A stretch of DNA of 40,836 bases, from positions 1 to 40,836 of the IMG/VR virus record IMGVR_UViG_3300020202_000048; one strand, 5' to 3'. A program made the position numbers and the translations under genes. This document shows, one piece after another, positions 3,504 through 37,887 of this stretch (its first letter is position 1; each line of letters opens with the position of its first letter). This DNA is from a virus. The notes beneath the pieces are model-generated. The model made no database searches. It was not told where the DNA came from and saw only the letters and a list, made by a program, of their open reading frames with translations.

Positions 3504-6500
3504 TTATGCTTGTACTCCATAAGCTAGTACGTCCCACTTAGTATCCGCTGCGTTATACATACACTTAAAGTACAACGTCTTGCCCGCTACTGTAGTAGTA
3601 GGAAGTGTGATACCAAGCGCTCGATAAATTGCATTGAAAGCAAGTGTTTGAGCTGATCCATTATCTTTAACTCTGATCCACAATTCCTGTCCGTCTGTTG
3701 GAGTTCCAGTTGGCGCACCAAATGTAGCACCAGCAGCAAGAGCTGTGACGGTGTACATATCATGATCATCAGCACTAGGAGTAGGTGTTGATGATGAAGC
3801 GACTGTTCCAACACGCTTAGTCATGCGCTTGTTGGTCATCGTTTGAGTATCAGTAGTTCCTATAACAGTTCCAGTAGGAACAGTTTTACCAGCCCATGAA
3901 GTGAGCGTTGCGCTGTATGCCTGTACGTTTGTACCAATCACAAGGCCGAGGTTTGTTCGCATTGCAGCATAGTCAGCAGAACCCAAGAAGGTTTGCATGT
4001 TTGCTGAAGGAGCAATACCAGCGTATGTAGTAAGGTTTGCTGAGTAAGCCTGTACGTTTGTACCAATCACTAATCCCAGAGTTGTTCGGACCTGAGCCGG
4101 AGTTCGTGAAGCCCAAGCTGAAGATACGGCAACTATAAAGTTGTCGGTGGTTGCAGTAAGACCAGCAATAGTAGTAAGATCGCTGTCCAAAGGCTGATAA
4201 GCAGAAGCAGCTGCGGAGGTTGTGAGATAAGTTGAGTTGTCATAAGTAATTGTTGTTCCTGATGCTTTTACAAATCCTGTTCCGTTGAGCTGTGCCTGTT
4301 TTGCAGCAAGATCAGTAGTGAGGTTTGTGATATCGGACTGAGGATGGGTGTGTGCTGAAGGAGCAAATGTTGCAGGAATACTTGTGAGAGAAGAATATGC
4401 GTGAGTGTGACTACTTGAAGCAGCATCCGTAATTCCATATCCTGCCAAAGTTGTAGGAAGACCTGAGGTGATATCGGCCCAAGCATGGGTATGTGAGGTT
4501 GATGCTTTACCGGCAAGTGCAGTATTTAAATCAGTTTGGTTAGAAAGAGTACCTCCGATAGATCCCCAGTTTACGGTTGCTGAAATTGCGGTCCATGCAC
4601 CATCTCCTCGAAGGAAGGTTGTATTGTCCGCTGTTCCTGATCCAAGTCGAGCAGCAGCAACGGTCCCTGAAGTAATATCGGCACCGGAGTGAGCATGAGA
4701 AGCAGCAGCATAATCAGTTCCGGCTACAGCAACAGAAACAACACCAGCAGTTGCCTTAAGAATTCCAGCTAATGAAGCAATACGAAGTTCAGCTGGAAGA
4801 TATACTTGTCCATTTTGATTTACAATAATTCGCTGTGCATTTGAAGCCGTTACATCCACAAGCGAAATTGAGTCTGCATCGTTGTATCCTGAAGACAATC
4901 TCCATTCTCGTGTACCCGGTTGGTTTGTTTTTAGTCGAAGTGTTGGAATTGAATATCCTTGAATATTGATATCTGATCCCGAGGTAATACCCGCAACAGT
5001 AAGACTACCCTGCATTGTCCAGTTTCCACTTGTTCCATCAACTGTGGTGTTTGGTGATGCAGAAGGTGTGCCGTGGTAGATATAAAGTGTGCCTTGATAG
5101 TTTCTAAAATAATGCTTTTTATATGTAGCAGTAGCATCATGTGCAATAGTGAGAGCTTGGTCCCCAGCATTGTTTAATACTACGTTCCCTGTAAATATTG
5201 CACCTGAAAGGTTGGCTTTGGCAGCAAGATCGGTAGTAAGGTTAGTAATATCTGATTGAGCATGAGTGTGAGTTGCACTTGCCTTTCCAGCTAAATCAGA
5301 AACGAGGTTGGTGATATCTGATTGAGCATGAGTGTGGGTACTACTTGCTTTCCCGTTGAGCTGAGTCTGAATTGCTGAAGTAACCCCCGCAACATATCCA
5401 AGTTCAGTAGATGTTACAGCCGATACAGCAACCTTGCCGGAAGTATCGGAAGCCAACGCTCGAGAAGCAGTAAGGTTTGAAGAGACGATTGTTGTAGCAC
5501 CTCCGGTAATTGTTGCTTGCTTTGCGTTGAGCTGAGTTTGAATTGCTGAGGTTACACCGTTTACATATCCAATTTCAGTTGCAGTCGTTGTCGCTACTAT
5601 AATTTTTCCTGAAGCATCTGAAACGAGAGCGCGAGAAGCGGTGAGGTTTGTTGTAACAAGACCACTAATGGCACCGGTCATTGCTGCTCGTGCGCGTGTA
5701 TCTGTATAGTAAAGGTTTCCTGACTCAGCGATGTGTGAAGTATTCAAAACAACCACGCCAGTTTGACCGTTTACTGAAGTAACAGCATCGGTAGGTGAAG
5801 CAAGTTCAGACCAGTCAGCCATTGTTCCAGCAGTACCACCGTTATGAATGTATGTCTTACTAATATCACTTCGGATTGCAACATCTCCTTCTTGTGCAGT
5901 AAGTGCAAGTTGCGCTGCTTGTGAAGCAACAGTATATACATCAGTAAGTGCAAGAGCGTGAGTAGAGATCCGAGCATCAACAGCTGTATTAAAGTCAGTA
6001 ATATTTGCTGCAACGTGAGTGTGTCCTGAAGCAGCAGCATCAGTAATTCCATAACCAGCTAAGGTTGTAGGCTTTGAAGTGAGTGATGCAAAAGTGTGAG
6101 TATGAGAAGTATCTGATTTTAAGTTAAGAGCGTTCTGAAGATCTGTTTGATTTGAAAGTGTACCAACAATAGCTCCCCATGTAGGAGTTCCTGAAGAAAC
6201 AGGTATGTAAAATTCAAGGCCAGTACCATCTGAATTTACGCGGACCGCTTCAAGGGCATGACCTTTATAGGTATCGGGTGTATCGGTAAGTGAAATAAAT
6301 TCCCGCGCACCTCCGGCAGGATACATGTGTGATCGAGGCCCAGCAAAACGATCCCAGTTTATAGCAATAGCTTCCTCAGGAATTTTTACCTCACCATCAA
6401 GAAGTTTTTTTATGATTTCATCCGCTGTCGGAGCTACCGGAACATCAATTTTAGGGATAAGAGGCAAGATCAGCTTTCGAAGTCGATCATCTGAAGGTGT

Positions 6501-6860: not shown

Positions 6861-9800
6861 TTAGTAGCCGAGTTTCTTCTTAGCTTTAACATAAATTTCG
6901 TAGTCATCGTCAGAAAGACTGTCTACAATTTTTGCAACGGCATCCATATCGCCTTTTTCCTTCCAATGCTGAACTTCCAACACCACGTCGTACATCTTTT
7001 CTGTTTTTTCCTTCGTGGCAGCGCTCTTCTTAGCTGTTCGAATGTCCTTGTACATTTCGTAGTCCTCTTCAGAAAGACCATCAATAATGGCATTAGCTTC
7101 CTCTTCACGGCCAGTATTCACCAGTGATTGAACATCGTTGTAGATTTTTGTAAGTTCCTTTTTACGAGGTTCATTTTTTTCTTTAACCTCTTCAAGACGT
7201 TTCTCAGCTTCAGTTTTTGGAGCATTTCCTTCCTTCTTTTCAAAGTATGCTTTAGCGTCCTTGTTTGCATATTTACCAAATATATAAGCCTGAACATCTT
7301 TTGCAGGAGTTCCACCAACAGGGAACTGTTGTCTGCCAGCAGCATCAAATGATCCACCTTCCTCAACAGCTTTCCTTCCCTGAAGAGTTTTCTTAAGTTG
7401 AATACCACCCGGAAGTACACCCCATGCAGCATTACCTACATCCTTTAATTTCTTTTCAGTGTCTCGAGCATTTCCATATTGATCAGGAGTATTGAGAGCA
7501 GCCTTCGCAGCTTCAACCGGCAACTTCATAGATGGAGGTACTCCGAACTTATGATCACCAGTGATTTGTCCTGAGAATGGGATGAGTTCTTTTGGTTCCA
7601 TTCCAAGAGCTGATCCCACGGTGTACACGAAAGCAAGACCACCAATGGTGTATCGAGCAATACCCATGTATTCCTTGTTTTTTGCCATTCCAGCGAGGAA
7701 TTCAGTCTGTTTCACCGGATAGGTCAAGAACTGTAGAAACACCTTCACAAGGTCATTCTGAAGCGCCAGAGGAGTATCTATAGCTGAGTATTGGAACTGA
7801 GTATCACGAACGATCTTCTTACCATACTCAATAGCTTCCTCAAGACTTTTTCCTTGAGCAAGAGCTTTAGATTTAGCACCGTAATAAGCAGAGGCACGGT
7901 TCACTTTTTCAGCAGTATCGAACATGAGGAATAATCCCTTGTCGAGTTTCTCCATCGCTTTACCGGCAGCTGAGATGTTTCGGTCCGTAATGAAATTGTC
8001 GGCAAGCACACCAACTTCTCGAGCTTCAGCTAATCCTTGCGTTGCTATTTTGGCATATCCGATAGCAGTATATTTTTCACCGAGTTTTGCATAGGTGTTT
8101 ACACCCTGAGATAGGTTTCGAAGTGCTGATCCTACGTTTGCACCGAGCATACCACGGAATGTCATTTGTCGAAGGAAGCGACTGATCTTAGCAACAGGTC
8201 GAGCGCCGAGCTTGTAGCCAAGCATTTGCTTCATGGTGTTATCAACAGCAGTATCAAAATCAGAAGGTCGCATGTTTACGCGATCCGCAAACTTCTTTAT
8301 GTAGTCAAACTGACTCTTCTCAAGTTTTTGTGCAACATCTGACAACTGAGAAAGAGCAGGGTCCATGTGTACCTTTCGGGTAGCACGCTTAGTGTAAGCA
8401 TCAAGGGCAGCGACAAAATCTTGTTTGTATCCAGCAGCACCAAGACGCTTCTCGAGGAATGGATCGTACACGGATCCGGGAACTTTATCAGATATAAGTT
8501 TTGCGAGGTCTTCATCGAATTCTTTTTTAATAAGCTGATCATCAAAAATGTGAGTGATGTAGTGTGAGATACGCTTGTCTTCAGGAAGTCCAAGTCGATC
8601 AGCCCATTCTTCAAGATACTTCTTTACTTCATCAGCAATCTTCGCTTCCTTTGCCGAAAGATCAACAGCTTCTCCATCAAGGTATCGGAATATTTTTGTA
8701 TTCTCTTCGGGTGTAACTTGCTTAGCCCACTGAGAAATCTTCTCAATATTCTTTGGAAGTTCCTGAACGTACCCCTCGTGAGATCGTCGAATGTCATCGA
8801 ACTCTTTTGAGAGTCCCATCTTACGAAATACATTTTCAGGTGTTCGAATAGCATCATGAAATCCCACCTTCTTTGAAAGAGGTGTAGGAGTTTTTCGGAC
8901 AGCTTCATCAAACGCAGGAAAAGCAGTAGGAGTATTAGGAGCATCAGGAACAGTTTTATATCGGTCCTGTTCAGCAACCTTTTCAAGTGATCGAACTTCT
9001 CCGGTAGACATTGAGTCTACTGCTCTATTAACGGTCTTTGGTTTTGGTTGAAATCCATTAAGGATCTTTTGTTTTACCGAAGGAGTTTTTTCTATCACCT
9101 TTTCAAGAGCATTTGCGAGACGAGCATTAGGTTGATTTGGATTTACACCATACCGTTCAGCAAGACGACGAACAGCAATTTCATTTTGAACACTAGGTTT
9201 TGCATTTGGAATACGGCTTCGGTCAATGAAGGTCAAAACTTCTCCAAGATCTTCATCGTGTATGTTATCAAACTTAGCTGTTCCCGGAACATCTCGAGAT
9301 GTGTTTCGAACGATTGAGTCGATAGGACGTGGAACTCTTTGATCGGCAATAGCCTGTCGAAGTGCCTTCTTTTCAGCTGAAACTTCAGCCATCCCCTTCT
9401 TATAGTTTGCTACTTCGTCTACAAACTTTCGTGGATCATTGATACCAGTTTCAGCGATTATATCCTCCATTTTTCGAACCGGCTTGTTTCGAACATTTCC
9501 AATATCAACAATATCCCCTTCCTTTCGCATCAATTTTCTTTGATCAACTTGAGCAACAGGATTATCTCGAAGCGCTTGTTCCTTTATTTCAAGTGCAATC
9601 CTTCGTTCCTCAAGCTCTCGAGGAAGTGGAGCTTTTGTGTTTTTTGGAACATCAGTAACCTTCACACTATTTAAGTGGGCTTCAATAACTTTTCGATCAT
9701 TTGTTTTTGCAATATTGTGAGCAAGATCATCAACAACATCATCACTCGCACCAATACTCTTCAAATAAGTTCGAATGGAGTTTTTGTCACCAGACTTTAC

Positions 9801-15218: not shown

Positions 15219-16989
15219 CGCTAATAATTTTGCTACTAGAAAACAGCTTCTCCGGTTGCTCCATACCCATGAAGGCAAATTGAGCGATCGTGAATGTTTC
15301 GTCTAGTTCACTGTTTCCAAGTCCCAAAACTATCGCCTGATTTTTTGAGAGGAAAGAAACTCGTTTTTTAATGAACGGACTGTATTCAATAGATCCAGCC
15401 ACACCACCAGCAAACAATCCATCCCCAAACATAACCTCACCAATTAGCGCTCCGAACGAACTGTTACCGAGGAAGAATGATTTATTCTTTTCCTCAGCAA
15501 GGTCGGACGCTTCCTGACGAATAGTTAGTTCAATGGTTCCCACAAGATCCTTAAATAGAATGTCGAGGTAACGGAATATTCTGAAACGATTGAACTGTTT
15601 ATCTTGAAGTCGTCGAAAGAACACCTGAGATGAAATAGGTGTAGCTATATCATTTAAACTAGCTGTCCATCGAATAGCTCCGAACGGCGCCACAGCTTTT
15701 GTGCTGTATACGTTTCCATCAACAACCATGAAGTCGTTTACACGCGCCTTATCTCGTCCTGTATATTTTGTCCAAGAATTTTTATAGAGAGTATGACAAA
15801 CAAAGACCGTATCTACCGTTCCTGTTTCAAGAGGTACACCAAGATAGAAGCGTCGGTTCTCATAGAACACGATCACCTTCTTAAAATTTTCTATAGAAAC
15901 ACGCTTAAGAGTTTCTTTAATTGGTTCAGAAATAACCGATTGGTTAATACCGAAGATACCTGAGACGTTGTCAGAGAAACCGATAGCTCGCACTTCACGT
16001 CCGGTGAAGAACCATAAGTCGTTTTCAACCCATGACACAGCCTTTCGAGAACATGCTCCATAAGTACCCGATTGCTGTTCGAGTTTAGGCACGAAGAGAC
16101 TGACAACCTGATCGTAGTTGAAGGTGAGTTTCCAAATACTATCTTGTTTGAATATGAGCATGGTTCCATAGTAATTTTTCAGGTTGGTTATACTATCAGT
16201 TCCAAGTGGTTTAACAAGATCAGTCGGAGTGAAGGTAGTAGGATTTCCTACGTTTGAATAATAAGCAGTAAGAGGTTCAGCTGTTACACCCGCGATGAAA
16301 AACCGGTCTTCAAAGACTTCGGTGATATTTCCTTTAGGAGCAGTATCGTATTCTGTTAAAGCAGTTCCGGTCCATTTAAAGAAGTTCTCTACGCCGTTGC
16401 CACCATAGAGTTCGTCGTTGTAGACAGTAAAGCCGAATTCCGCGCCTTCAGTGTAGACTCGAGTGACTGTGTGAACTCCAGATTGAGTACCTGAAGTGTT
16501 AATAGCTGCTCCACCAACTGTTGCTGAAAATTGAAAAGCATCTGAAGTTAATCCGGTTGCAATTACATAATAAGTGGTTCCAGCTGTTACACCTGTAGGA
16601 AGGGCGCCTGTTGTACTAAAAGTAATAGGAGTCCCAGCTTTAAAACCATGAGCCACCAGAGTCGCAACCGCCGGTGAGGCCACTGTAATTGTGACGGTCC
16701 CCGCTGCTATATCTGTCCAAAGTCCAGTACCGCTACTATAGTATTTCAGGCTTTTACCAGTACCAGCAACGATAAAAGAGTTTCCATTTTTCTTTTTGAA
16801 ATAGAAGAGTGAGTGAAGAAGAGACGCCTGAGCATTTCCGAACAGAGCAATACCAGTATCTTTTGTGAGATATCCTTCGTCCACGAAGTTCATGTTTACA
16901 GGAACACTTCGACCGTCGGATGCGTCAACGTCGATGATGTCTTGGAGGTTGTCCTGTATGATTGTGAATTTTTGTTGTCGTAATGGCAT
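15211..16989 (-). CDS. Tail nozzle / tail tubular protein B-like (P22 gp10/T7 gp12 type)
   Basis: The protein is 592 aa and starts MPLRQQKFTIIQDNLQDIIDV. It has the arrangement of podovirus nozzle proteins: an N-terminal strand region, then a propeller with units such as GNSFIVAGTGKSLKYY, NDELYGGNGVENFFKW, EDRFFIAGVTAEPLTAYYSN, YGTMLIFKQDSIWKL and ENDLWFFTGREVRAIGFS. A beta-sandwich insert at about residues 95-180 (VAHGFKAGTPITFSTTGALP) is a module often carried by phage structural proteins. It lies directly after the adaptor gene, as in other podoviruses. The nozzle closes the tail tube until DNA release. I am confident of the class, not of any exact orthologue. Confidence 0.82.
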   Translation of the reverse strand: MPLRQQKFTIIQDNLQDIIDVDASDGRSVPVNMNFVDEGYLTKDTGIALFGNAQASLLHSLFYFKKKNGNSFIVAGTGKSLKYYSSGTGLWTDIAAGTVTITVASPAVATLVAHGFKAGTPITFSTTGALPTGVTAGTTYYVIATGLTSDAFQFSATVGGAAINTSGTQSGVHTVTRVYTEGAEFGFTVYNDELYGGNGVENFFKWTGTALTEYDTAPKGNITEVFEDRFFIAGVTAEPLTAYYSNVGNPTTFTPTDLVKPLGTDSITNLKNYYGTMLIFKQDSIWKLTFNYDQVVSLFVPKLEQQSGTYGACSRKAVSWVENDLWFFTGREVRAIGFSDNVSGIFGINQSVISEPIKETLKRVSIENFKKVIVFYENRRFYLGVPLETGTVDTVFVCHTLYKNSWTKYTGRDKARVNDFMVVDGNVYSTKAVAPFGAIRWTASLNDIATPISSQVFFRRLQDKQFNRFRIFRYLDILFKDLVGTIELTIRQEASDLAEEKNKSFFLGNSSFGALIGEVMFGDGLFAGGVAGSIEYSPFIKKRVSFLSKNQAIVLGLGNSELDETFTIAQFAFMGMEQPEKLFSSSKIISVV

Positions 16990-16995
16990 ATATTT

Positions 16996-17634
16996 TTACC
17001 AATGATGCGGATCATTATTGTTGTTATACCCTCCGAACATTCTGATACCATTGAACATAGTACCTCCTCGCTGAGCATCCTCTTCATAATTTGAAAGAGT
17101 AGCGATCTTATCCTTGATCATGTCGTCGTACTTTGTTTGGAAGAATTTTGAAAGCTCAACATCCTGAAGGTCCTCATAGGCTCGATAAAGAATTCCATAA
17201 ACAATAACTTCATCGAAGTAATCATCGAACATTGGCTGACCTCCGGCTTCAAGGTCCTCATACTTTGGATAGTATTTGATATTTAAACTTGTTGTATTTC
17301 GAGGAGATACGCGCATTACTCCACCTTCAATAGACACGGCATTACTAATTCCAGAGTCTCGAGTGAAGTCTGAAATATTTAACTCAACGAAGTGATCGTT
17401 TCCTGTAACAGAATAGGCGTCGGCATACATTGTTCCAAAATCTGTTGGAAGCGTGCCGACACCGTTTACAAAAACTACCGTAGCTGATTTGATCGCACTA
17501 TTAGGAAAAATTTTTCGTGCAATGTCCTTATACGCAAGGTTTGCGTAGATCAAAAGTGTCTCTTCATCAAGAATTTCCGTTCCTGTTTCAAGAAGTTTTT
17601 TACGAGCTAATGCAATTATTTGTTGAGTAGTCAT
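16996..17634 (-). CDS. Head-tail adaptor / tail tubular protein A-like
   Basis: This 212-aa protein starts at MTTQQIIALARKKL, 10 nt after a TATAAT box; the longer open frame would begin inside the capsid gene. The opening helix (TTQQIIALARKKLLETGTEI), then LLIYANLAYKDIARKIFP, then strands in the middle and a helical end, follow the gp4/gp11-type adaptor proteins that fill the gap between portal and nozzle. The Asn- and His-rich tail (GGYNNNNDPHHW) is probably flexible. The stop lies 6 nt before the nozzle start. Context (capsid, adaptor, nozzle) supports the call. Confidence 0.75.
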   Translation of the reverse strand: MTTQQIIALARKKLLETGTEILDEETLLIYANLAYKDIARKIFPNSAIKSATVVFVNGVGTLPTDFGTMYADAYSVTGNDHFVELNISDFTRDSGISNAVSIEGGVMRVSPRNTTSLNIKYYPKYEDLEAGGQPMFDDYFDEVIVYGILYRAYEDLQDVELSKFFQTKYDDMIKDKIATLSNYEEDAQRGGTMFNGIRMFGGYNNNNDPHHW

Positions 17635-25542: not shown

Positions 25543-25557
25543 ATTACGGATATTATA
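25543..25557 (-). promoter_or_regulatory. -10 box of the small terminase gene
   Basis: Minus strand TATAAT (25557-25552) then 9 nt and the ATG at 25542. No good -35 and no TG extension were seen. Confidence 0.5.
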
Positions 25558-25589
25558 ACCCGATAGCGCCCAATAGGCCACACTTGACA

Positions 25590-25629
25590 CACACTTGTGT
25601 ATTGTTGTGTATTGCTAATATGTGGATAA
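25590..25629. promoter_or_regulatory. TTGTGTATTG tandem repeat and DnaA box in the divergent region
   Basis: TTGTGTATTG occurs twice in tandem (25595-25604, 25605-25614), preceded by ACACA-CT-TGTGT. TGTGGATAA at 25621-25629 is a perfect DnaA box (TTATCCACA on the minus strand). The region separates late and early genes. Confidence 0.6.
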
Positions 25630-25639
25630 TTGTCTAGTA

Positions 25640-25674
25640 ATTGTCTTGACAATAATCTAGCTATCGTCTATACT
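25640..25674 (+). promoter_or_regulatory. Consensus early promoter with overlapping palindrome
   Basis: TTGACA (25646-25651), 17 nt, TATACT (25669-25674), the best sigma-70-type promoter in the window. The palindrome ATTGTC-TT-GACAAT (25640-25653) covers the -35, so a repressor could block it. Expected start is about 25681, giving a leader of about 28 nt. Confidence 0.8.
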
Positions 25675-25708
25675 TAGTATATTAGTAAATAGTTAATAAC
25701 ATAGATAT

Positions 25709-25990
25709 ATGGAAAATAAAACAGCGACAGTAAAAAATATGACAGGGCGAACAGGTCGGGAAGTTCCCAATCAATTCGTAATAGCAACACGGGACGGGCT
25801 ATTCTTTCAGAGTTATAAAAGCGTTATTGCTTTTGTACCTTTCGATGGTAGCAAGATCAAGCTAGATCGAACTTACTGGGATTATTCACGAACAACGGGC
25901 AAGTATCGAAATGAGTTTTTGCGAGAAAATAAAGCGGAAACAGTAAAAAAGATCAATGAAGGTGTGTATGAATTGGTAGACCTTAACTAG
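25709..25990 (+). CDS. First early gene, conserved-looking phage protein of unknown function
   Basis: This 93-aa soluble protein has the block PNQFVIATRDGLFFQSYKSV and then DRTYWDYSRTTGKYRNEFL, a pattern I associate with small phage early proteins of unknown function. It is driven by the strongest promoter in the window and ends before a GC-rich hairpin. A role in takeover or regulation is likely from its place, but nothing shows the mechanism. Confidence 0.75.
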   Translation: MENKTATVKNMTGRTGREVPNQFVIATRDGLFFQSYKSVIAFVPFDGSKIKLDRTYWDYSRTTGKYRNEFLRENKAETVKKINEGVYELVDLN

Positions 25991-30044: not shown

Positions 30045-30082
30045 TACTTGCGGTAAGTATGTCAATATGATAGACTATATAT
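30045..30082 (+). promoter_or_regulatory. Leaderless promoter with palindromic operator (copy 1)
   Basis: Palindrome TACTT-GCGGT-AAGTA (30045-30059) covers the -35 TTGCGG (30048-30053). A 17-nt spacer with TATG, then TAGACT (30071-30076), 6 nt and the ATG at 30083. The mRNA should begin at the start codon. Confidence 0.8.
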
Positions 30083-31231
30083 ATGAAACCTTTGAAGCAT
30101 CAAGAAAAATTCCAAAAGGACTATACAGGCAAACGTATTTTGGTGCATGAAGGAGGTACAGGTAAGACTATTTGTGCATGTCTGTGGCTTAAGGATGGAC
30201 GAGATGATGACGCCCTTGTGGTATGTCCTAAGCGTGTAGTAAAGAAGTGGTTAGAAGCACTCCGTCTATGGGGAACTAAAGCTACTGTGCTATCTAAAGA
30301 GGAGTTTAAAAAACATCCATTAAAACGATGGTCAGCTGTGGTAATTGATGAGGCCGATGAGTTTGCATCTCCTCTTTTTACAAAGGCGCGATCACAATTA
30401 TCAGAGAAAATGTACAACCTTATTCGTACATATAATCCGATAACTCTTTTGCTCACGGCTACACCGATAAGATCAACGCCGTGGAATTTACATACCATCC
30501 TCGCGCTCAGTGGAAAATATATTGATTGGAAAAAATGGCGCGCTCACTTTTTCGAACTGAAGAAGGAACGGTACATGCCACGTCCAGCATGGCTACCGAA
30601 AAGAAATTGGCGTAAGATGATCAAGCCGGTACTCGAAAAGTATTGTGACATTGTACTGCTCAAAGATTGTGTTGGAGAAGTTCCACCTATCACTGAGGAA
30701 AAGATATTGGTACCTTCAGAACCTTTCGACGCAACAGAATGGGAAGGATCAAAAGCATTTTTCGAAGAGCATCGACATGAACAGCTCAACAAGCCAAAGG
30801 AAATTTTGGCAATCGGAAAGGAATATCGAAAGGTATTAGTCGTTGCATATTATCGAGAGCAGATAGATCAGTTGCAAAAGGAACTATCAAAAGATCGTGA
30901 GACGTTTGCAATTTATGGAGGCGTGAAGGATCAGGAGAACATCATCAAGCAAGCGCAAGAAAGTGACGAGTGTTACTTCATTGTTCAAGCATCACTTGGC
31001 GCGGGCTTCGATGGTGATCAATTCTCAGCCGTTGCTTTCGCATCAATGAGTTACTCGGTCCGCGACTTTGTGCAAATGAAATTCCGCGTTCGACGAATTC
31101 ACAATCTTCATCCGGTGAAATTTTATTATCTAATGGGAGGCCGTTGCGATAAGGCAGTATTAAGAAACATACAGCTCGGAAAAGACTTCGTGCCTTCAGA
31201 ATGGAAACCAAATGAAACATCTAGTACATAA
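30083..31231 (+). CDS. SF2 DEAD/Snf2-type helicase
   Basis: The protein is 382 aa. Motif I is HEGGTGKT (22-29); motif Ia region ALVVCPKRVVKKW (44-56); motif II IDEADEF (88-94); motif III LTATPIRSTPW (124-134). The second RecA domain ends with a GAGFDGDQFSAVAFASMSYS ... QMKFRVRRIH block (motifs V-VI, with the Q..RR arginine finger). All parts needed for ATP-driven strand or protein displacement are there. Its promoter shares an operator with the nuclease gene. It probably helps recombination or replication restart. The class is firm; the exact role is inferred. Confidence 0.88.
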   Translation: MKPLKHQEKFQKDYTGKRILVHEGGTGKTICACLWLKDGRDDDALVVCPKRVVKKWLEALRLWGTKATVLSKEEFKKHPLKRWSAVVIDEADEFASPLFTKARSQLSEKMYNLIRTYNPITLLLTATPIRSTPWNLHTILALSGKYIDWKKWRAHFFELKKERYMPRPAWLPKRNWRKMIKPVLEKYCDIVLLKDCVGEVPPITEEKILVPSEPFDATEWEGSKAFFEEHRHEQLNKPKEILAIGKEYRKVLVVAYYREQIDQLQKELSKDRETFAIYGGVKDQENIIKQAQESDECYFIVQASLGAGFDGDQFSAVAFASMSYSVRDFVQMKFRVRRIHNLHPVKFYYLMGGRCDKAVLRNIQLGKDFVPSEWKPNETSST

Positions 31232-32607: not shown

Positions 32608-32649
32608 AGTATAGCAGACTATAAATAAATGCGCAACTTGCGGTAAGTA
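32608..32649. promoter_or_regulatory. Divergent promoters sharing the palindromic operator (copy 2)
   Basis: Minus: TTGCGC (32636-32631), 17 nt, TGC-TATACT (-10 at 32613-32608) for the SSB-like gene. Plus: the palindrome variant AACTT-GCGGT-AAGTA (32635-32649) covers the -35 TTGCGG of the nuclease promoter. One regulator could control both directions. Confidence 0.7.
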
Positions 32650-32672: not shown

Positions 32673-33302
32673 ATGACTTACAACCTTCCAAGACCGTACC
32701 TTTCTTACTCAGCGTTTTCGCTATGGGAGAAAGACAAGGACGCATTTCGAAGGAGATATTATGAAAACGAAAAACCATTTGAAACTGTTGAAACTATTTT
32801 TGGTAAAACTGTTCACGAACAGTTGTCACCGGATGGAGAAAAACAGATTGAAGTTTGGCTAACAGAGGATCTCAAGTTGATGGGGTTTCTCGACAACTTC
32901 AATGAAGAAAGTTTAGGTATCACGGACTATAAGACCGGACACTTAGACTCAAAAGGAAATGCGCCGTGGGATAGAGTGAAGGTTCAGAAACACAAGCAAC
33001 TTGTTTTTTATTCTCTACTCGTTCTGCTTAAGTATGGTAAGTACAATCCAATCGTTAAACTTGAATGGCTCGAAACAAAATTCAAGAACAGAAGTGTGGA
33101 GTTCAACGGCCACATATTAAATACAGAAACTCGAGAGCTAGAACTCACCGGTAAAAAGAAGATGTTTGAACGGCGTGTATTCAAATGGGAGATCGAGAAA
33201 ATGAAACGAGAAATTATCAAGGTCGCTCGCGACATAAGTAAAGATTACACCCTATGGCAAAAAAGAAACGGATCCTTCCAATCCCCGAACGAGAACTCAT
33301 AA
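32673..33302 (+). CDS. RecB-like PD-(D/E)xK nuclease
   Basis: The protein is 209 aa. YLSYSAFSLWEKDKDAFRRRYY (9-30) is the opening helix of RecB/Cas4-like nucleases. GKTVHEQL has the family histidine (His48), GFLDNF gives Asp74, and ITDYKTG gives Asp85-Tyr-Lys87, the D-x-K metal site. No Fe-S cysteine cluster is visible. Phages use such enzymes to trim DNA ends for recombination. With the SF2 helicase and SSB it forms a repair or replication set under a common operator. Confidence 0.85.
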   Translation: MTYNLPRPYLSYSAFSLWEKDKDAFRRRYYENEKPFETVETIFGKTVHEQLSPDGEKQIEVWLTEDLKLMGFLDNFNEESLGITDYKTGHLDSKGNAPWDRVKVQKHKQLVFYSLLVLLKYGKYNPIVKLEWLETKFKNRSVEFNGHILNTETRELELTGKKKMFERRVFKWEIEKMKREIIKVARDISKDYTLWQKRNGSFQSPNENS

Positions 33303-33432: not shown

Positions 33433-33464
33433 TACTTGCGGTAAGTAAAAGGATATGCTAACAT
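33433..33464 (+). promoter_or_regulatory. Promoter with palindromic operator (copy 3), accessory operon
   Basis: TACTT-GCGGT-AAGTA (33433-33447) overlaps -35 TTGCGG (33436-33441); 17 nt; TAACAT (33459-33464). The leader is about 26 nt to ATG 33497, longer than at copies 1 and 2. Confidence 0.75.
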
Positions 33465-33496: not shown

Positions 33497-33796
33497 ATGG
33501 ATATACAAATATTCAAAGATTACGCAGAAGTGAAGCGACAGATCTCGGCCCTTGAGGAGCAAGCAAAACTTCTACAAGGTGCAGTCATGCAGGAACTTGA
33601 AAAGTCCGGCAAGACCAAAGAAGAAACCGAGTTCGGTCGCTTTTCTATTGCCAGTCGCAAGAATTACAAATACAGCCCTAAGGTCGAAGAGCTAGAAGAA
33701 AAGGTAGAGCTTGCGAAGATTAAAGAACGAGAGAAAGGAATAGCAAAAGTTACGGAAACCCATTACTTAATGTATAAAGACACAACAAAAGTATGA
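33497..33796 (+). CDS. Coiled-coil protein, first gene of the accessory operon
   Basis: The protein is 99 aa: helical residues 8-40 (YAEVKRQISALEEQAKLLQG) and a second coil (KVEELEEKVELAKIKEREKG), with a strand block between (EFGRFSIASRKNYKYS). It resembles in outline short phage proteins of the Gam or nuclease-inhibitor kind, but this is not proof. Its stop overlaps the next ATG (ATGA). Confidence 0.6.
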   Translation: MDIQIFKDYAEVKRQISALEEQAKLLQGAVMQELEKSGKTKEETEFGRFSIASRKNYKYSPKVEELEEKVELAKIKEREKGIAKVTETHYLMYKDTTKV

Positions 33797-34239
33797 AACT
33801 AAAAAATCGACAGGTTACGTTCGCAAATGCAGTACTCAAGAATATAAAACTTGAAGTTACTCAATCAGCAGGACGACGACGTTTTCTAAGAGACTTACGT
33901 CCATTCCATGATGATATCGTTGAAGCTCAAACAGAAATTCAACAGCAGTACGCAGACAAAGATAAGAACGGTGAAGTAAAAGCTGATCCTGTTACAGGAC
34001 TAATTAAATTCTCAGGTGAGAATAAAAAGAAGTCAGAAGCAGAATGGCGAAAACTCGAAGAAGGTGAAATCTTTTTTGAAGTAAGTGAAAAGAATGAACG
34101 AGATGTAAATACTGTTATTGATATCCTAACAGCTCATCGAGATGAATATCTTGAAAAGAATGAAAAGGAACTCAATGCAGAACAGTATGAATATTTCGAA
34201 GAACTAGAAAATTTAATAGAGACACTTAAAAATAAATAA
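33793..34239 (+). CDS. Hypothetical charged helical protein
   Basis: The protein is 148 aa. It begins MKLKNRQVTFANAVLKNIKL and ends in an acidic coil (EQYEYFEELENLIETLKNK), with no transmembrane part. The layout resembles DUF1617-like phage proteins, but I would not rely on that. Coupled to the previous gene by ATGA; 5 nt to the SPFH gene. Confidence 0.6.
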   Translation: MKLKNRQVTFANAVLKNIKLEVTQSAGRRRFLRDLRPFHDDIVEAQTEIQQQYADKDKNGEVKADPVTGLIKFSGENKKKSEAEWRKLEEGEIFFEVSEKNERDVNTVIDILTAHRDEYLEKNEKELNAEQYEYFEELENLIETLKNK

Positions 34240-34244
34240 TAGAT

Positions 34245-35087
34245 ATGTATCCTACATCACGCAGACAACCAAATCCAATTAAAATTGCTCTTTATGTTTT
34301 TCTCGGACTACTCGGACTCATGATCATTTTCGGATCTTTCGGAGTCGTAGATGCCGGAGAACGAGGAGTGAAAGTGAGACTCGGTAATGTTGTTGGAACA
34401 GTAGAGTCAGGTGTTTATTTCAAACTTCCATTTATAGAAAGTGTAAAGAAGTTTGATGTTCGAACTCAGAGTGTAGTATATGAAAAGGAAAATCCATTAA
34501 CAGCAGCGTCGTCGGATCTTCAGGATGCAACGATCGCAACTGTTACGAATTATCATATTGACCCATCAAAGGTTGTCGAGATTTACCTTCAGTATAAAAC
34601 ACTTCAGGCGTTCGAAGACAATGTAATTCGGCCATCAGTTCGAGACTCAATTAAAACAGCATCAGCACAATTCACAGCCAATGAGCTTGTTGGAAAACGA
34701 GCAGAGTTCGCGGACCGTGCAGCTAAACTATTGAATGAACGATTTGCCGATAAGTACATCGTGATCGAACAATCAAACATCACCGACGTTAAATTCTCAG
34801 AGAGCTTTACTCAAGCCATCGAAGCCAAAGTAACAGCGCAACAGCAAGCTGAGAAGGCACGAAACGATCTTGTTCGTATCGAGCTTGAAGGTAAGCAAGC
34901 AATCGTGAGAGCGCAAGCAGAAGCTGAAGCCATCCGGCTCAAGTCTCAAGCAGCAAGCAATGAAAAATACGTTTCATTGAAGGCTCTCGAAGTTGAAGAA
35001 AAGGCTATTGAAAAATGGAATGGACAGCTACCTACACAGTTTATTCCGGGATCAACAATGCCATTTATAAATCTTAATAACCGCTAA
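34245..35087 (+). CDS. SPFH/prohibitin (HflK-like) membrane protein
   Basis: The protein is 280 aa. There is one transmembrane helix at about residues 12-33 (IALYVFLGLLGLMIIFGSFG), then the SPFH core: VDAGERGVKVRLGNVVGTVE, SGVYFKLPFIESVKKFDVRTQ, and the helix QFTANELVGKRAEFADRA. A coiled coil of AQAEAEAIRLKSQ type covers 190-240. In bacteria these proteins form ring or cage scaffolds around FtsH or in membrane microdomains. A phage copy next to an FtsH-class AAA+ ATPase is notable. It may modulate host membrane proteolysis or shield the envelope. The family call is firm; the role is inferred. Confidence 0.9.
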   Translation: MYPTSRRQPNPIKIALYVFLGLLGLMIIFGSFGVVDAGERGVKVRLGNVVGTVESGVYFKLPFIESVKKFDVRTQSVVYEKENPLTAASSDLQDATIATVTNYHIDPSKVVEIYLQYKTLQAFEDNVIRPSVRDSIKTASAQFTANELVGKRAEFADRAAKLLNERFADKYIVIEQSNITDVKFSESFTQAIEAKVTAQQQAEKARNDLVRIELEGKQAIVRAQAEAEAIRLKSQAASNEKYVSLKALEVEEKAIEKWNGQLPTQFIPGSTMPFINLNNR

Positions 35088-35088
35088 T

Positions 35089-35319
35089 ATGTCTCAGAAA
35101 TTACAACGACATAGTTGGACAAAGGAAGAAATCAAAAAGTTGGTGAAGGTATGGGATACCCACACTATTGATGAAGTTGCTCAAGAATTGAAGCTAGACC
35201 GACAGCAAGTGCAGTACATGGTGAACGAAATCCGAAAGGCCGGAGTTCCCCTCGCAAAAAAGCATCGAAAGGGTTATCTTCAAAATCTTATTAAAGAAGC
35301 ACTTAATATCAAAAAATAA
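35089..35319 (+). CDS. Myb/SANT or HTH-like DNA-binding protein
   Basis: The protein is 76 aa. HSWTKEEIKKLVKVWDTHTI is a Myb/SANT-type first helix; EVAQELKLDRQQVQYMVNEI forms the turn and recognition helix. The C-terminus is basic (KKHRKGYLQNLIKEALNIKK). It starts 1 nt after the SPFH stop. It may be the regulator of the operon, or of the GCGGT palindromes; the target is not shown. Confidence 0.65.
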   Translation: MSQKLQRHSWTKEEIKKLVKVWDTHTIDEVAQELKLDRQQVQYMVNEIRKAGVPLAKKHRKGYLQNLIKEALNIKK

Positions 35320-35320
35320 A

Positions 35321-35545
35321 ATGGATCCAAAAAAAGCTGAAGAAGGTATGGGAATGATGGGAGTTAGTTTCATTATGACCCTCGCTCGTTTGTCAGGCAT
35401 CAAACCAAAGGACTTCGCTGATGCTATTGTTGAAGACAAGAAGGATCAGGAATATCTCGAAGAGTTTACACTTGAATTTTCTCGAGCTACTATCGAGGCA
35501 ATGAAGCAAAAGCGTAAGGATCGGGACGCTGCAAAGCAATCGTAG
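35321..35545 (+). CDS. Small hypothetical helical protein
   Basis: The protein is 74 aa, helical, Met-rich start (MDPKKAEEGMGMMGVSFIMT), with a short hydrophobic patch and a charged tail (KQKRKDRDAAKQS). Spacing of 1 nt from the previous gene and a hairpin after it suggest an operon end or pause. Unknown. Confidence 0.55.
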   Translation: MDPKKAEEGMGMMGVSFIMTLARLSGIKPKDFADAIVEDKKDQEYLEEFTLEFSRATIEAMKQKRKDRDAAKQS

Positions 35546-35555
35546 TACTTAGCTT

Positions 35556-35578
35556 CTGTCCTTTTATGAGGAGGACAG
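35556..35578 (+). terminator. Hairpin after the small helical gene
   Basis: CTGTCCT-tttatgagg-AGGACAG, seven perfect pairs. No T-run follows, so partial termination or mRNA processing. Confidence 0.45.
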
Positions 35579-35613
35579 GGTGGTGAGTATTATAAAAATA
35601 AAACATAAAATAT

Positions 35614-35979
35614 ATGGATAACGAACATGAACATGATGAAGAATTAGACGAAGAAGAGATAGCACGTCGCAAGGCTATCACTGAAAAATACCGAAAGAAA
35701 ACTAACGCTCTTATGGCTGAGATGGCTGAAGAGATGGTGGACGAAGAGGTACAGAAGAAGATCGAAGATAAGATCAAGGATATTCTTGCTGATCAAAAAG
35801 TTCCTTTTACTCTTACCCACATGAAGGCTTTTAATGAAGGTATGACATTGATGATGAGTGCTATCGGAGAACGAGAAATTCCGGCAATGCTTTTCATGGT
35901 CACAAAAATGATCATCGCTCGAAAAGAAAAGGCGGTGAACGAACAGGTCGAAAAATCAACAAAAGAAAACGGCTTATAA
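35614..35979 (+). CDS. Hypothetical acidic helical protein
   Basis: The protein is 121 aa. An acidic start (NEHEHDEELDEEEIARRKA) is followed by helices; residues 80-115 (LTHMKAFNEGMTLMMSAIGE) are amphipathic and Met-rich. It lies 6 nt before the AAA+ gene and probably forms part of the same complex or operon. No motif. Confidence 0.6.
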   Translation: MDNEHEHDEELDEEEIARRKAITEKYRKKTNALMAEMAEEMVDEEVQKKIEDKIKDILADQKVPFTLTHMKAFNEGMTLMMSAIGEREIPAMLFMVTKMIIARKEKAVNEQVEKSTKENGL

Positions 35980-35985
35980 ACTAAC

Positions 35986-37257
35986 ATGGCTTTTGCTAGT
36001 AATTCTATGGGAAATAATTTTGATCCGAACGATCCATACAGTCAAATATTTTCAAACGTGAGTGCGAAATATGCAAAGATGATGCAGCAACAGCTCATGT
36101 CCCAGAATGTAGCCTTTACTACTTACAACATGCCATCAAGAAACAATAATATGAACCCATTTTCACCCGGAGATCGAGTTGTCCTTATTAAAGGAGAAGG
36201 TCGATCCCGATCAAAAGAACATAACCCTGAATGGGGACGTGACGGAGACTACATTGCCGGAAGAGTTGATGACGTAAACCGTCACGGCCCTGAGGTAGTT
36301 ATTAGTTGGGACAACGGATCACGAAATATATACAGCATATTAGATGCTAAGATCGTTCCGCATCACGACGCTCCAAAGCCTAAAGGAAAAACTGGATGGA
36401 AGAAAGGAGATAAGTCAGCAACACTTGATACTACTAAGCTCGATCCTCTTATTATTGATCCTGCAATCAAATCTGAAATAGTTGCGCTTCTTCAACAGCA
36501 CAAGCACGCTGATAAGATCTTCGATGAATGGGGTCTTGGTGAGCTTATTGAATACGGACGCGGTATGACTCTCATGTTCCACGGAGGACCGGGAACAGGT
36601 AAAACTTTCGGCGCACGATGTATTGCAAAGGCACTTGGTAAAGAACTTCTTGTGATCGGAGCAGCTGAAATTCAATCGTCAGAACCGGGAGGAGCTAACC
36701 GTGCTATTCAAGAAGCATTTGCAACTTGTGAAAAAGATAACAAGGTACTCTTTATTGACGAGTGTGACTCATTGATCGCGAACCGTGCAAACCTCGGTAT
36801 GATCCTTGCCTCAGAAATTAACACGCTCCTTACTGAAATTGAAAAGTGTGAAGGTGTAGTGATCCTTGCAACAAACCGTATCTCAGACATGGACTCAGCT
36901 CTTGAACGACGATTGTCATTGATCATCAAGTTCCCTAACCCATCACTTGAACAGCGTATTGCAATCTGGAAGGGATTGTTGCCAGCAAAAATGCCGTTGA
37001 ACATCGACGTTGAGATCGAACGACTTGCAGCACACGAACTAACCGGAGGTCTTATTAAAAACATTGTACTTCAAGCAGCTCGACTTGCAGTTGCCGACAA
37101 TGCAAAAGATGTACAGATGGCACACTTCGATAAGGCTATTGCTCGAGTAAAATCTTCACAAAACCTCATGGGTAAGAAGCGGGTACAGAGCGATGAGGTA
37201 GGTGTTGGAACAAGTACCAATAAGAAAGAAGTTATTAGAAAAATTGACGATCTATAA
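35986..37257 (+). CDS. AAA+ ATPase of the FtsH/Cdc48 class with N-terminal SH3-like domain
   Basis: The protein is 423 aa. Residues 58-125 (FSPGDRVVLIKGEGRSR, YIAGRVDDV, EVVISWDNGS) look like a KOW/SH3-like beta barrel. The ATPase core has Walker A HGGPGTGKT (199-207), Walker B VLFIDECD (254-261), sensor 1 ILATNR (Asn297) and arginine fingers in SALERR (308-309). A helical lid follows (HELTGGLIKNIVLQAARLAV). There is no protease domain or transmembrane helix. Such rings unfold or remodel proteins. The SPFH gene in the same operon suggests joint work at the membrane. Confidence 0.9.
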   Translation: MAFASNSMGNNFDPNDPYSQIFSNVSAKYAKMMQQQLMSQNVAFTTYNMPSRNNNMNPFSPGDRVVLIKGEGRSRSKEHNPEWGRDGDYIAGRVDDVNRHGPEVVISWDNGSRNIYSILDAKIVPHHDAPKPKGKTGWKKGDKSATLDTTKLDPLIIDPAIKSEIVALLQQHKHADKIFDEWGLGELIEYGRGMTLMFHGGPGTGKTFGARCIAKALGKELLVIGAAEIQSSEPGGANRAIQEAFATCEKDNKVLFIDECDSLIANRANLGMILASEINTLLTEIEKCEGVVILATNRISDMDSALERRLSLIIKFPNPSLEQRIAIWKGLLPAKMPLNIDVEIERLAAHELTGGLIKNIVLQAARLAVADNAKDVQMAHFDKAIARVKSSQNLMGKKRVQSDEVGVGTSTNKKEVIRKIDDL

Positions 37258-37260
37258 TTT

Positions 37261-37500
37261 ATGACAACAAATTTCTCAAATCAAAGACGACCATCATTCA
37301 AGCCTCGATGTCCAAACCACAACGAAGAGCTAATGGATATCCCATTTCCTATGCCGAAGAAAGGGGTAGGTATATGTCCGGTATCCGGCGCTCCGTTTGA
37401 ATTCGAGGTCGATGTGGACGAAGAAAAGATGATCAAGGATAAGAACGGAAACCTCGTACCAACAGTCGGTTGGTCATTAAGCGGGGAAGAAAATGAATAA
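37261..37500 (+). CDS. Small zinc-ribbon-like protein
   Basis: The protein is 79 aa. CPNH (17-20) and CPVSGAPFEF with Cys39 give three Cys/His near zinc spacing; the rest is acidic (EVDVDEEKMIKDKNG). It lies 3 nt after the AAA+ gene. It may be an adaptor or substrate-binding subunit for the ATPase; this is only suggested by place. Confidence 0.55.
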   Translation: MTTNFSNQRRPSFKPRCPNHNEELMDIPFPMPKKGVGICPVSGAPFEFEVDVDEEKMIKDKNGNLVPTVGWSLSGEENE

Positions 37501-37518: not shown

Positions 37519-37887
37519 ATGAACGCATTATTTTTAGTCGCAGTATGGGTAGTATTTATTGGAGTTATGATCTACTCTTCTAACGCAAGTCGTCGATCTG
37601 TTTTTGGAAGAGAATTACCGGACTCAGAAACGGTACCATTCTTAGAACAGCATTTGAAAGACTACACCCTCAACGATATTACATGGAAGAGTGGAGGTAA
37701 GATGCTCTATGGAATGGGACATCTACCTTTTATTGCTCAAACGAGCAAGGGAATGTTTGGTCAAAGACCTCAATGGTATGTAAATGATTACGGTATGATC
37801 CCTAAAAATTCTAAAGCAGAGAAGATGATCAATGATCATTGGGATACGCTTCCAAAGCCATTAGAACCTAAGCTCAGCGATCTATGA
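37519..37887 (+). CDS. Membrane-anchored hypothetical protein
   Basis: The protein is 122 aa: one N-terminal transmembrane helix (LFLVAVWVVFIGVMIYSS, 4-21), then a soluble domain with MLYGMGHLPFIAQTSKGMFG and RPQWYVNDYG. It may be an envelope protein expressed with the SPFH module. Stop overlaps the next ATG by 4 nt. No known family. Confidence 0.6.
   Translation: MNALFLVAVWVVFIGVMIYSSNASRRSVFGRELPDSETVPFLEQHLKDYTLNDITWKSGGKMLYGMGHLPFIAQTSKGMFGQRPQWYVNDYGMIPKNSKAEKMINDHWDTLPKPLEPKLSDL

Follow-up and report, generated by a model that had tools for sequence, protein, structure and literature searches.

A phage operon encoding a prohibitin-like SPFH protein and a AAA ATPase with a constant small Cys/His partner

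Introduction

Precedents for an SPFH complex that works with a AAA protein are HflK/C with FtsH and prohibitin with m-AAA. In the former, FtsH contacts HflK/C via its periplasmic domain, inside the cage (PMC12048511). Both orientations of SPFH complexes occur in E. coli, according to the part of PMC12048511 that cites Chiba et al. 2006. Phages also have SPFH proteins, grouped as phrog_200 and found in the T4-like phages 44RR, Aeh1, and RB43, in Kayvirus (MbpS), and in Bruynoghevirus. They are common and have no assigned job; two papers term their role unclear (PMC13239085, PMC8540360; see also PMC1524935 and PMC7150955 on phage SPFH proteins). Among AAA proteins, the reference points for the enzyme described here are PAN and Cdc48/p97, the Pvc15-type eCIS ATPases (PMC11495950), and IetA of the IetAS system.

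An SPFH gene in one operon with the phage's own AAA ATPase gene looked informative. Such an operon is present in a 40.8-kb virus record in IMG/VR, the whole of which was analyzed and is referred to as the window. The literature that we searched contained no paper about this ATPase family or about a phage SPFH-AAA pair.

Organization of the operon

Profile searches confirmed what an earlier note made from the letters alone had proposed, namely, that the window has phage-encoded SPFH and AAA genes (PF01145, 1.7e-35; PF00004, 1.2e-21). They belong to a run of eight genes on the + strand, from 33497 to 37500, that overlap or lie at most 69 bp apart, and they are probably cotranscribed. The run, the operator copy before it, and the gene after it are as follows:

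33434..33446, + strand: operator copy ACTTGCGGTAAGT before the SPFH-ATPase operon (exact copies also at 30046-30058 and 32636-32648)
33497..33796, + strand: first gene of the operon, 99 aa, no assigned function (ORF, gene spacing)
33793..34239, + strand: 148-aa protein of phrog_1401, function unassigned (4.6e-14)
34245..35087, + strand: SPFH (prohibitin-like) protein, 280 aa, TM segment at residues 14-32 (34284-34340) (PF01145, phrog_200, prohibitin structures)
35089..35319, + strand: HTH protein, 76 aa (phrog_323, 4.6e-8; HTH_28, 4.5e-4, below cut-off)
35321..35545, + strand: 74-aa protein, no assigned function (ORF only, no family matches)
35614..35979, + strand: acidic helical protein, 121 aa (tblastn homologs in G002 and G003)
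35986..37257, + strand: AAA ATPase, 423 aa (PF00004, model, structure comparison, family alignment)
37261..37500, + strand: small C-x2-H...C protein, 79 aa, constant partner of the ATPase (linkage, alignment)
37519..37887, + strand: 122-aa protein with an N-terminal TM segment (weak homolog after the G003 cassette, tblastn 1.3e-4)

The HTH gene named in that note is supported, and a membrane protein is indeed encoded after the ATPase gene. The operator common to this operon and the recombination genes is also real. It is the 13-bp sequence ACTTGCGGTAAGT, with half-sites ACTT/AAGT, of which the window has three exact copies (30046, 32636, and 33434); a search there that allowed two mismatches found no more. 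Each copy lies just 5' of a gene, these being the helicase gene at 30083, the exonuclease gene at 32673, and the head of the SPFH operon at 33497. Early control common to the SPFH operon and the recombination genes is a fair reading of this arrangement. Scans for promoter-like and terminator-like sites returned no more of them than shuffled sequences did. A Shine-Dalgarno sequence precedes only 5 of the 32 gene starts in the window, versus 2.5 expected by shuffling, and AT-rich leaders such as TAAAAT-ATG are seen; the host may come from a group with low SD use. No near-identical DNA was found among annotated phages.

The AAA ATPase family

When IMG/VR was scanned for the ATPase and for the small protein encoded at 37261-37500, ten further phages that carry the ATPase emerged (G001 to G009 and G015). 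Judged by the genes they share, the ATPase phages make up about five groups that otherwise have little in common, and the ATPases of the family form one clade (92/96). The sole match in a bacterial genome, L007, was an ordinary host FtsH and was discarded; Rhodobacter phages, where a AAA gene at a similar map position encodes a distant ATPase and where no SPFH gene was present in the stretch read, were also set aside. Reading of the sequences revealed a Cpn60/GroEL-like chaperonin in one group of cassette phages, of about 42 kb, at these positions:

G002, 15754-17157: Cpn60/GroEL-like chaperonin
G004, 3921-5366: Cpn60/GroEL-like chaperonin
G006, 442-2097: Cpn60/GroEL-like chaperonin
G014, 7996-9564: Cpn60/GroEL-like chaperonin

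The window protein is a AAA ATPase of the classical clade. Its Walker A, Walker B, sensor 1, and arginine finger motifs (GPGTGKT, DE, TN, and RR) are conserved across the family, with Walker A at residues 200-207 (36583-36606). The confident parts of the predicted structure are an SH3-like barrel (residues 64-125; 36175-36360) and a AAA module (residues 149-392), the latter resembling PAN, p97, and FtsH in structure comparison (Z 20-22). No protease domain or TM segment was found in the ATPase, in agreement with the earlier note. Pfam searches with the N-domain alone gave nothing above cut-off (SH3-C_UBE2O, 0.12; DUF4314, 0.13), and because AAA modules took up the results of the structure search, the barrel itself was barely compared with known folds.

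An unusual part of the enzyme is its pore loop 1, which reads SSEPG in the window (residues 231-235; 36676-36690). Nine of the 11 family members have SEPG here, one has SVPG, and one has YMAG. Other AAA proteins compared have an aromatic or bulky residue followed by x-G at this place, for example, FVG in FtsH, KYVG in Mcat5, and KYIG in eCIS-type proteins; the aromatic-x-G loop of the threading unfoldases FtsH and PAN was not found in the phage family. Since a conserved SEPG replaces the aromatic pore-loop residue, the sequence suggests that the ATPase does not thread substrates like FtsH or Cdc48. PAN and Cdc48/p97 are similar to it in that a classical AAA module (Z 21.7 and 21.2, respectively) follows a small N-terminal beta barrel. 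Unlike them, the phage ATPase has one AAA module, an SH3-like strand order in the barrel, a pore loop without an aromatic residue, and no proteasome.

The closest non-phage relatives found are plasmid ATP-binding proteins, about 33% identical over the AAA module. One of these, from Rhodococcus, adjoins Pvc16 and tail-sheath genes and is of the Pvc15 type, which places Pvc15-type eCIS ATPases, along with other plasmid ATP-binding proteins, nearest to the phage family outside phages. The eCIS-type ATPases differ from it by their canonical KYIG pore loop and, in the Rhodococcus case, by these neighbors; no sheath, tube, or Pvc16 gene was noticed when the phage neighborhoods were read by eye.

The C termini of the ATPases (37216-37254 in the window; also G001, G002, G003, and G005) have a variable linker followed by a hydrophobic/acidic motif (IRKIDDL, IKRFL, ISRTIDAVF, IDSFFKEIED, and ISDFLQ). 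As sequences, these motifs recall sliding-clamp-binding tails.

The Cys/His protein and other small proteins

In all ten genomes where its position could be checked (the window and nine relatives whose contig reaches that position), the Cys/His protein is encoded zero to one genes downstream of the ATPase, and this linkage extends over about five groups of phages that otherwise resemble each other little. The Cys/His protein is the near-obligatory partner of the ATPase; the SPFH protein is only an occasional neighbor. The label of a zinc protein given to this gene earlier stands in part: the alignment shows invariant C17, H20, and C39, which are possible metal ligands, although they number three and not four. 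The model of the protein is uncertain (pLDDT 69). It had no match in annotated phages, and its pairing with the ATPase appears to be undescribed in the libraries searched. In G008 (25556-25945, minus strand), the Cys/His frame runs on at its 5' side to take in a TM segment, with an 8-nt overlap with the gene before it; this is perhaps a membrane-anchored version of the protein.

The acidic protein is a less constant companion, with homologs encoded immediately before the ATPase in G002 and G003 (tblastn 1.9e-11 and 1.7e-9) and a truncated remnant in G001. Only the 3' part of the G001 gene remains, and an HNH-like fragment (L002, 9198-9450) appears to interrupt it between the SPFH and ATPase genes.

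The SPFH protein

The SPFH protein matches Band_7 (PF01145) and phrog_200 (1e-64) across the whole domain and adds a member to a phage family that is already known. When a profile of two sequences was used, prohibitins were the closest solved structures (1.2e-34), with HflC far behind (5e-8); the curated equivalog cut-offs for HflC and HflK were missed (40.9 of 134.4 and 31.5 of 159.4 bits, respectively). The protein has the SPFH fold and TM placement of mitochondrial prohibitins and HflK/HflC; unlike theirs, its ring and protease partner are only putative. The single TM segment follows MYPTSRRQPNPIK (charge +4), and no second TM-like stretch was found in the protein. One TM segment, a basic N terminus, and best homology to prohibitins together suggest that the SPFH domain is outside the cytoplasm (N-in, an HflC/prohibitin-like layout), a prediction limited by the weaker charge signal in some relatives.

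SPFH matches are present in 670 of the 50,697 annotated phage records; only 67 have any match to the window ATPase. The phrog_200 proteins resemble the window protein in their one N-terminal TM segment, KW[ND]G-LP...PFINL-type C terminus, and early-region position, but their phages usually lack a AAA ATPase of the window's family. A signature like KW[ND]G-x-LP...PG...PFINL (35000-35084 in the window) is common to many phage SPFH C termini. In other phages, the SPFH gene adjoins replication, recombination, or RIIB genes, without a window-type ATPase; the neighbors include primase/helicase, O/DnaC, and RIIB genes. In G001 and G004, it lies beside an ERF-like and SSB-like pair, as read from the neighborhoods. 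SPFH is an early-region gene generally, and this habit can explain its nearness to the ATPase gene and part of the enrichment described below.

Co-occurrence of the SPFH protein with the ATPase

Peptide-pattern searches of IMG/VR found no close relatives of the window SPFH protein, and its presence in other phages was therefore checked with Pfam and phrog_200 profiles. SPFH proteins were detected in four of the ten ATPase relatives (G001, G003, G004, and G006); neither PF01145 nor phrog_200 detected one in the contigs, possibly incomplete, of the other six (G002, G005, G007, G008, G009, and G015). The ATPase of G002 is the sister of the window's and the closest found (70% identical), and two small TM proteins occupy the place where an SPFH protein would stand in that phage. 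The SPFH and ATPase genes are separated by 0.9 kb in the window, by 0.4 kb in G001, and by 5 kb in G004; joining the contig ends of G003 would give about 1.6 kb there. In G006, the order of the two genes is reversed, and they are 2 kb apart.

The earlier note had proposed co-occurrence of the two genes in related phages as a check. On the one hand, they do co-occur above a random sample: among IMG/VR contigs of 20 kb or longer sampled by random 14-mers, SPFH was found in 1 of 52, versus four of the ten relatives, a comparison based on small numbers and unmatched for phage type (Fisher P=0.0017), and after the lineages were collapsed to five, SPFH was present in two of five, versus 1 of 52 (P=0.018). 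The enrichment is real but modest. On the other hand, the same note had named relatives with only one partner as evidence against its proposal, and this is largely what was seen, down to the phage with the sister ATPase. Furthermore, the cassette phages' SPFH proteins do not cluster as a clade of their own within the phage SPFH proteins; thus, SPFH and ATPase do not travel as a strict pair. Three Rhizobium phages (B1VFA, V1VFA-S, and X66) have both an SPFH protein and a AAA ATPase and were left out of the counts, because in B1VFA the ATPase core differs (GEPGQGKT, no SEPG) and the two genes are about 11 kb apart.

Possible roles of the two proteins

We consider it somewhat more probable than its alternatives combined that two early modules lie next to each other here, a phage prohibitin and a AAA/Cys-His remodeler, rather than a docked SPFH-AAA machine. 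The SPFH protein would insert into the host cytoplasmic membrane via its N-terminal TM segment and assemble, with the SPFH domain on the outer side, into a ring like that of prohibitins. Judging from its family, its role in infection may be to change either the membrane itself or the proteolysis that the host carries out there. The second module would be a cytosolic machine composed of the ATPase, probably a hexamer, and the Cys/His protein as a dedicated cofactor, often with the addition of the acidic helical protein encoded upstream. Its target would be chosen by the SH3-like N-domain or by the small proteins and then remodeled or taken apart by movements powered by ATP; because the genes are in an early position beside replication and recombination genes, we infer that a DNA-transaction complex or a host factor is the likeliest target. 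The modules would share regulation and timing and would not need to make contact. What counts against this reading is the enrichment of SPFH, the location of both genes within 1 kb in the window and G001, the possibility that missing SPFH genes partly reflect incomplete contigs, and the existence in nature of the opposite SPFH orientation. The earlier proposal has the ATPase bound to the SPFH ring in the manner of FtsH and HflK/C, as one machine. The precedents, the common operon, and the enrichment speak for such a machine; however, an FtsH-type periplasmic domain and a TM segment are both missing from the phage ATPase and the predicted place of the SPFH domain is across the membrane from it, which makes direct docking unlikely, and no SPFH protein was detected beside the closest ATPase. 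The AAA partner in HflKC-FtsH-type systems has TM, extracytoplasmic, and protease domains, whereas the phage enzyme is a soluble AAA protein with an SH3-like barrel, and the partners are not kept together across the relatives, within the limits of possibly incomplete contigs. We regard docking as very improbable.

A looser association fares better, although it is still well behind the two-module reading: the SPFH protein and the AAA machine may serve one membrane-linked pathway without direct docking. The SPFH ring would organize a membrane patch (at a host membrane defense, FtsH/HflKC, or an entry site), small TM proteins would bring the cytosolic ATPase to its inner face, and another membrane protein would replace SPFH in phages that lack it. 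Co-occurrence above the random sample, the single operon in the window and near-adjacency in G001, the two TM proteins at the corresponding place in G002, TM proteins near the ATPase in G003 and G008, and the G008 Cys/His ORF in frame with a TM segment are all consistent with this. Yet phage early regions often encode small TM proteins, none of the TM proteins has homologs in all of the relatives, the spacing is loose in G003, G004, and G006, and the sample with which co-occurrence was compared was not matched for phage type. A tighter version, in which the SPFH ring and the AAA/Cys-His machine build one phage membrane apparatus and a non-threading SEPG ring remodels a membrane-bound target, with coupling via the N terminus of SPFH, a short basic tail, or via small adaptors with TM segments, seems to us unlikely. 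A similarly low probability attaches to the ATPase being part of an IetA-related, phage-carried defense or counter-defense that hits competing phages or a host IetAS-like system. IetA gives the best PADLOC and NCBIfam matches (2.1e-28 and 4.8e-26), the latter being the best curated AAA model for the ATPase, and the public phage matches include a prophage IetA-like gene with an S8 peptidase; however, the score is far below the curated cut-off (91.8 of 510 bits) and an S8 peptidase (PF00082) was found in none of 12 records, on which grounds membership in IetAS was rejected. In addition, in the tree, which has long branches, eCIS-type and other ATPases are closer to the family than that prophage IetA is, and the ATPase gene is located in the early replication region.

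Implications

Comparison with relatives makes the SPFH-ATPase operon a weaker handle on the role of phage SPFH proteins than it first appeared. While the phage SPFH family is already known, the ATPase family and its partner appear to be undescribed, and the focus shifts to this phage AAA family with its near-inseparable Cys/His protein and conserved non-aromatic pore loop. No membrane part is predicted for the window's pair, which should express easily; thus, a direct search for its target would be feasible.
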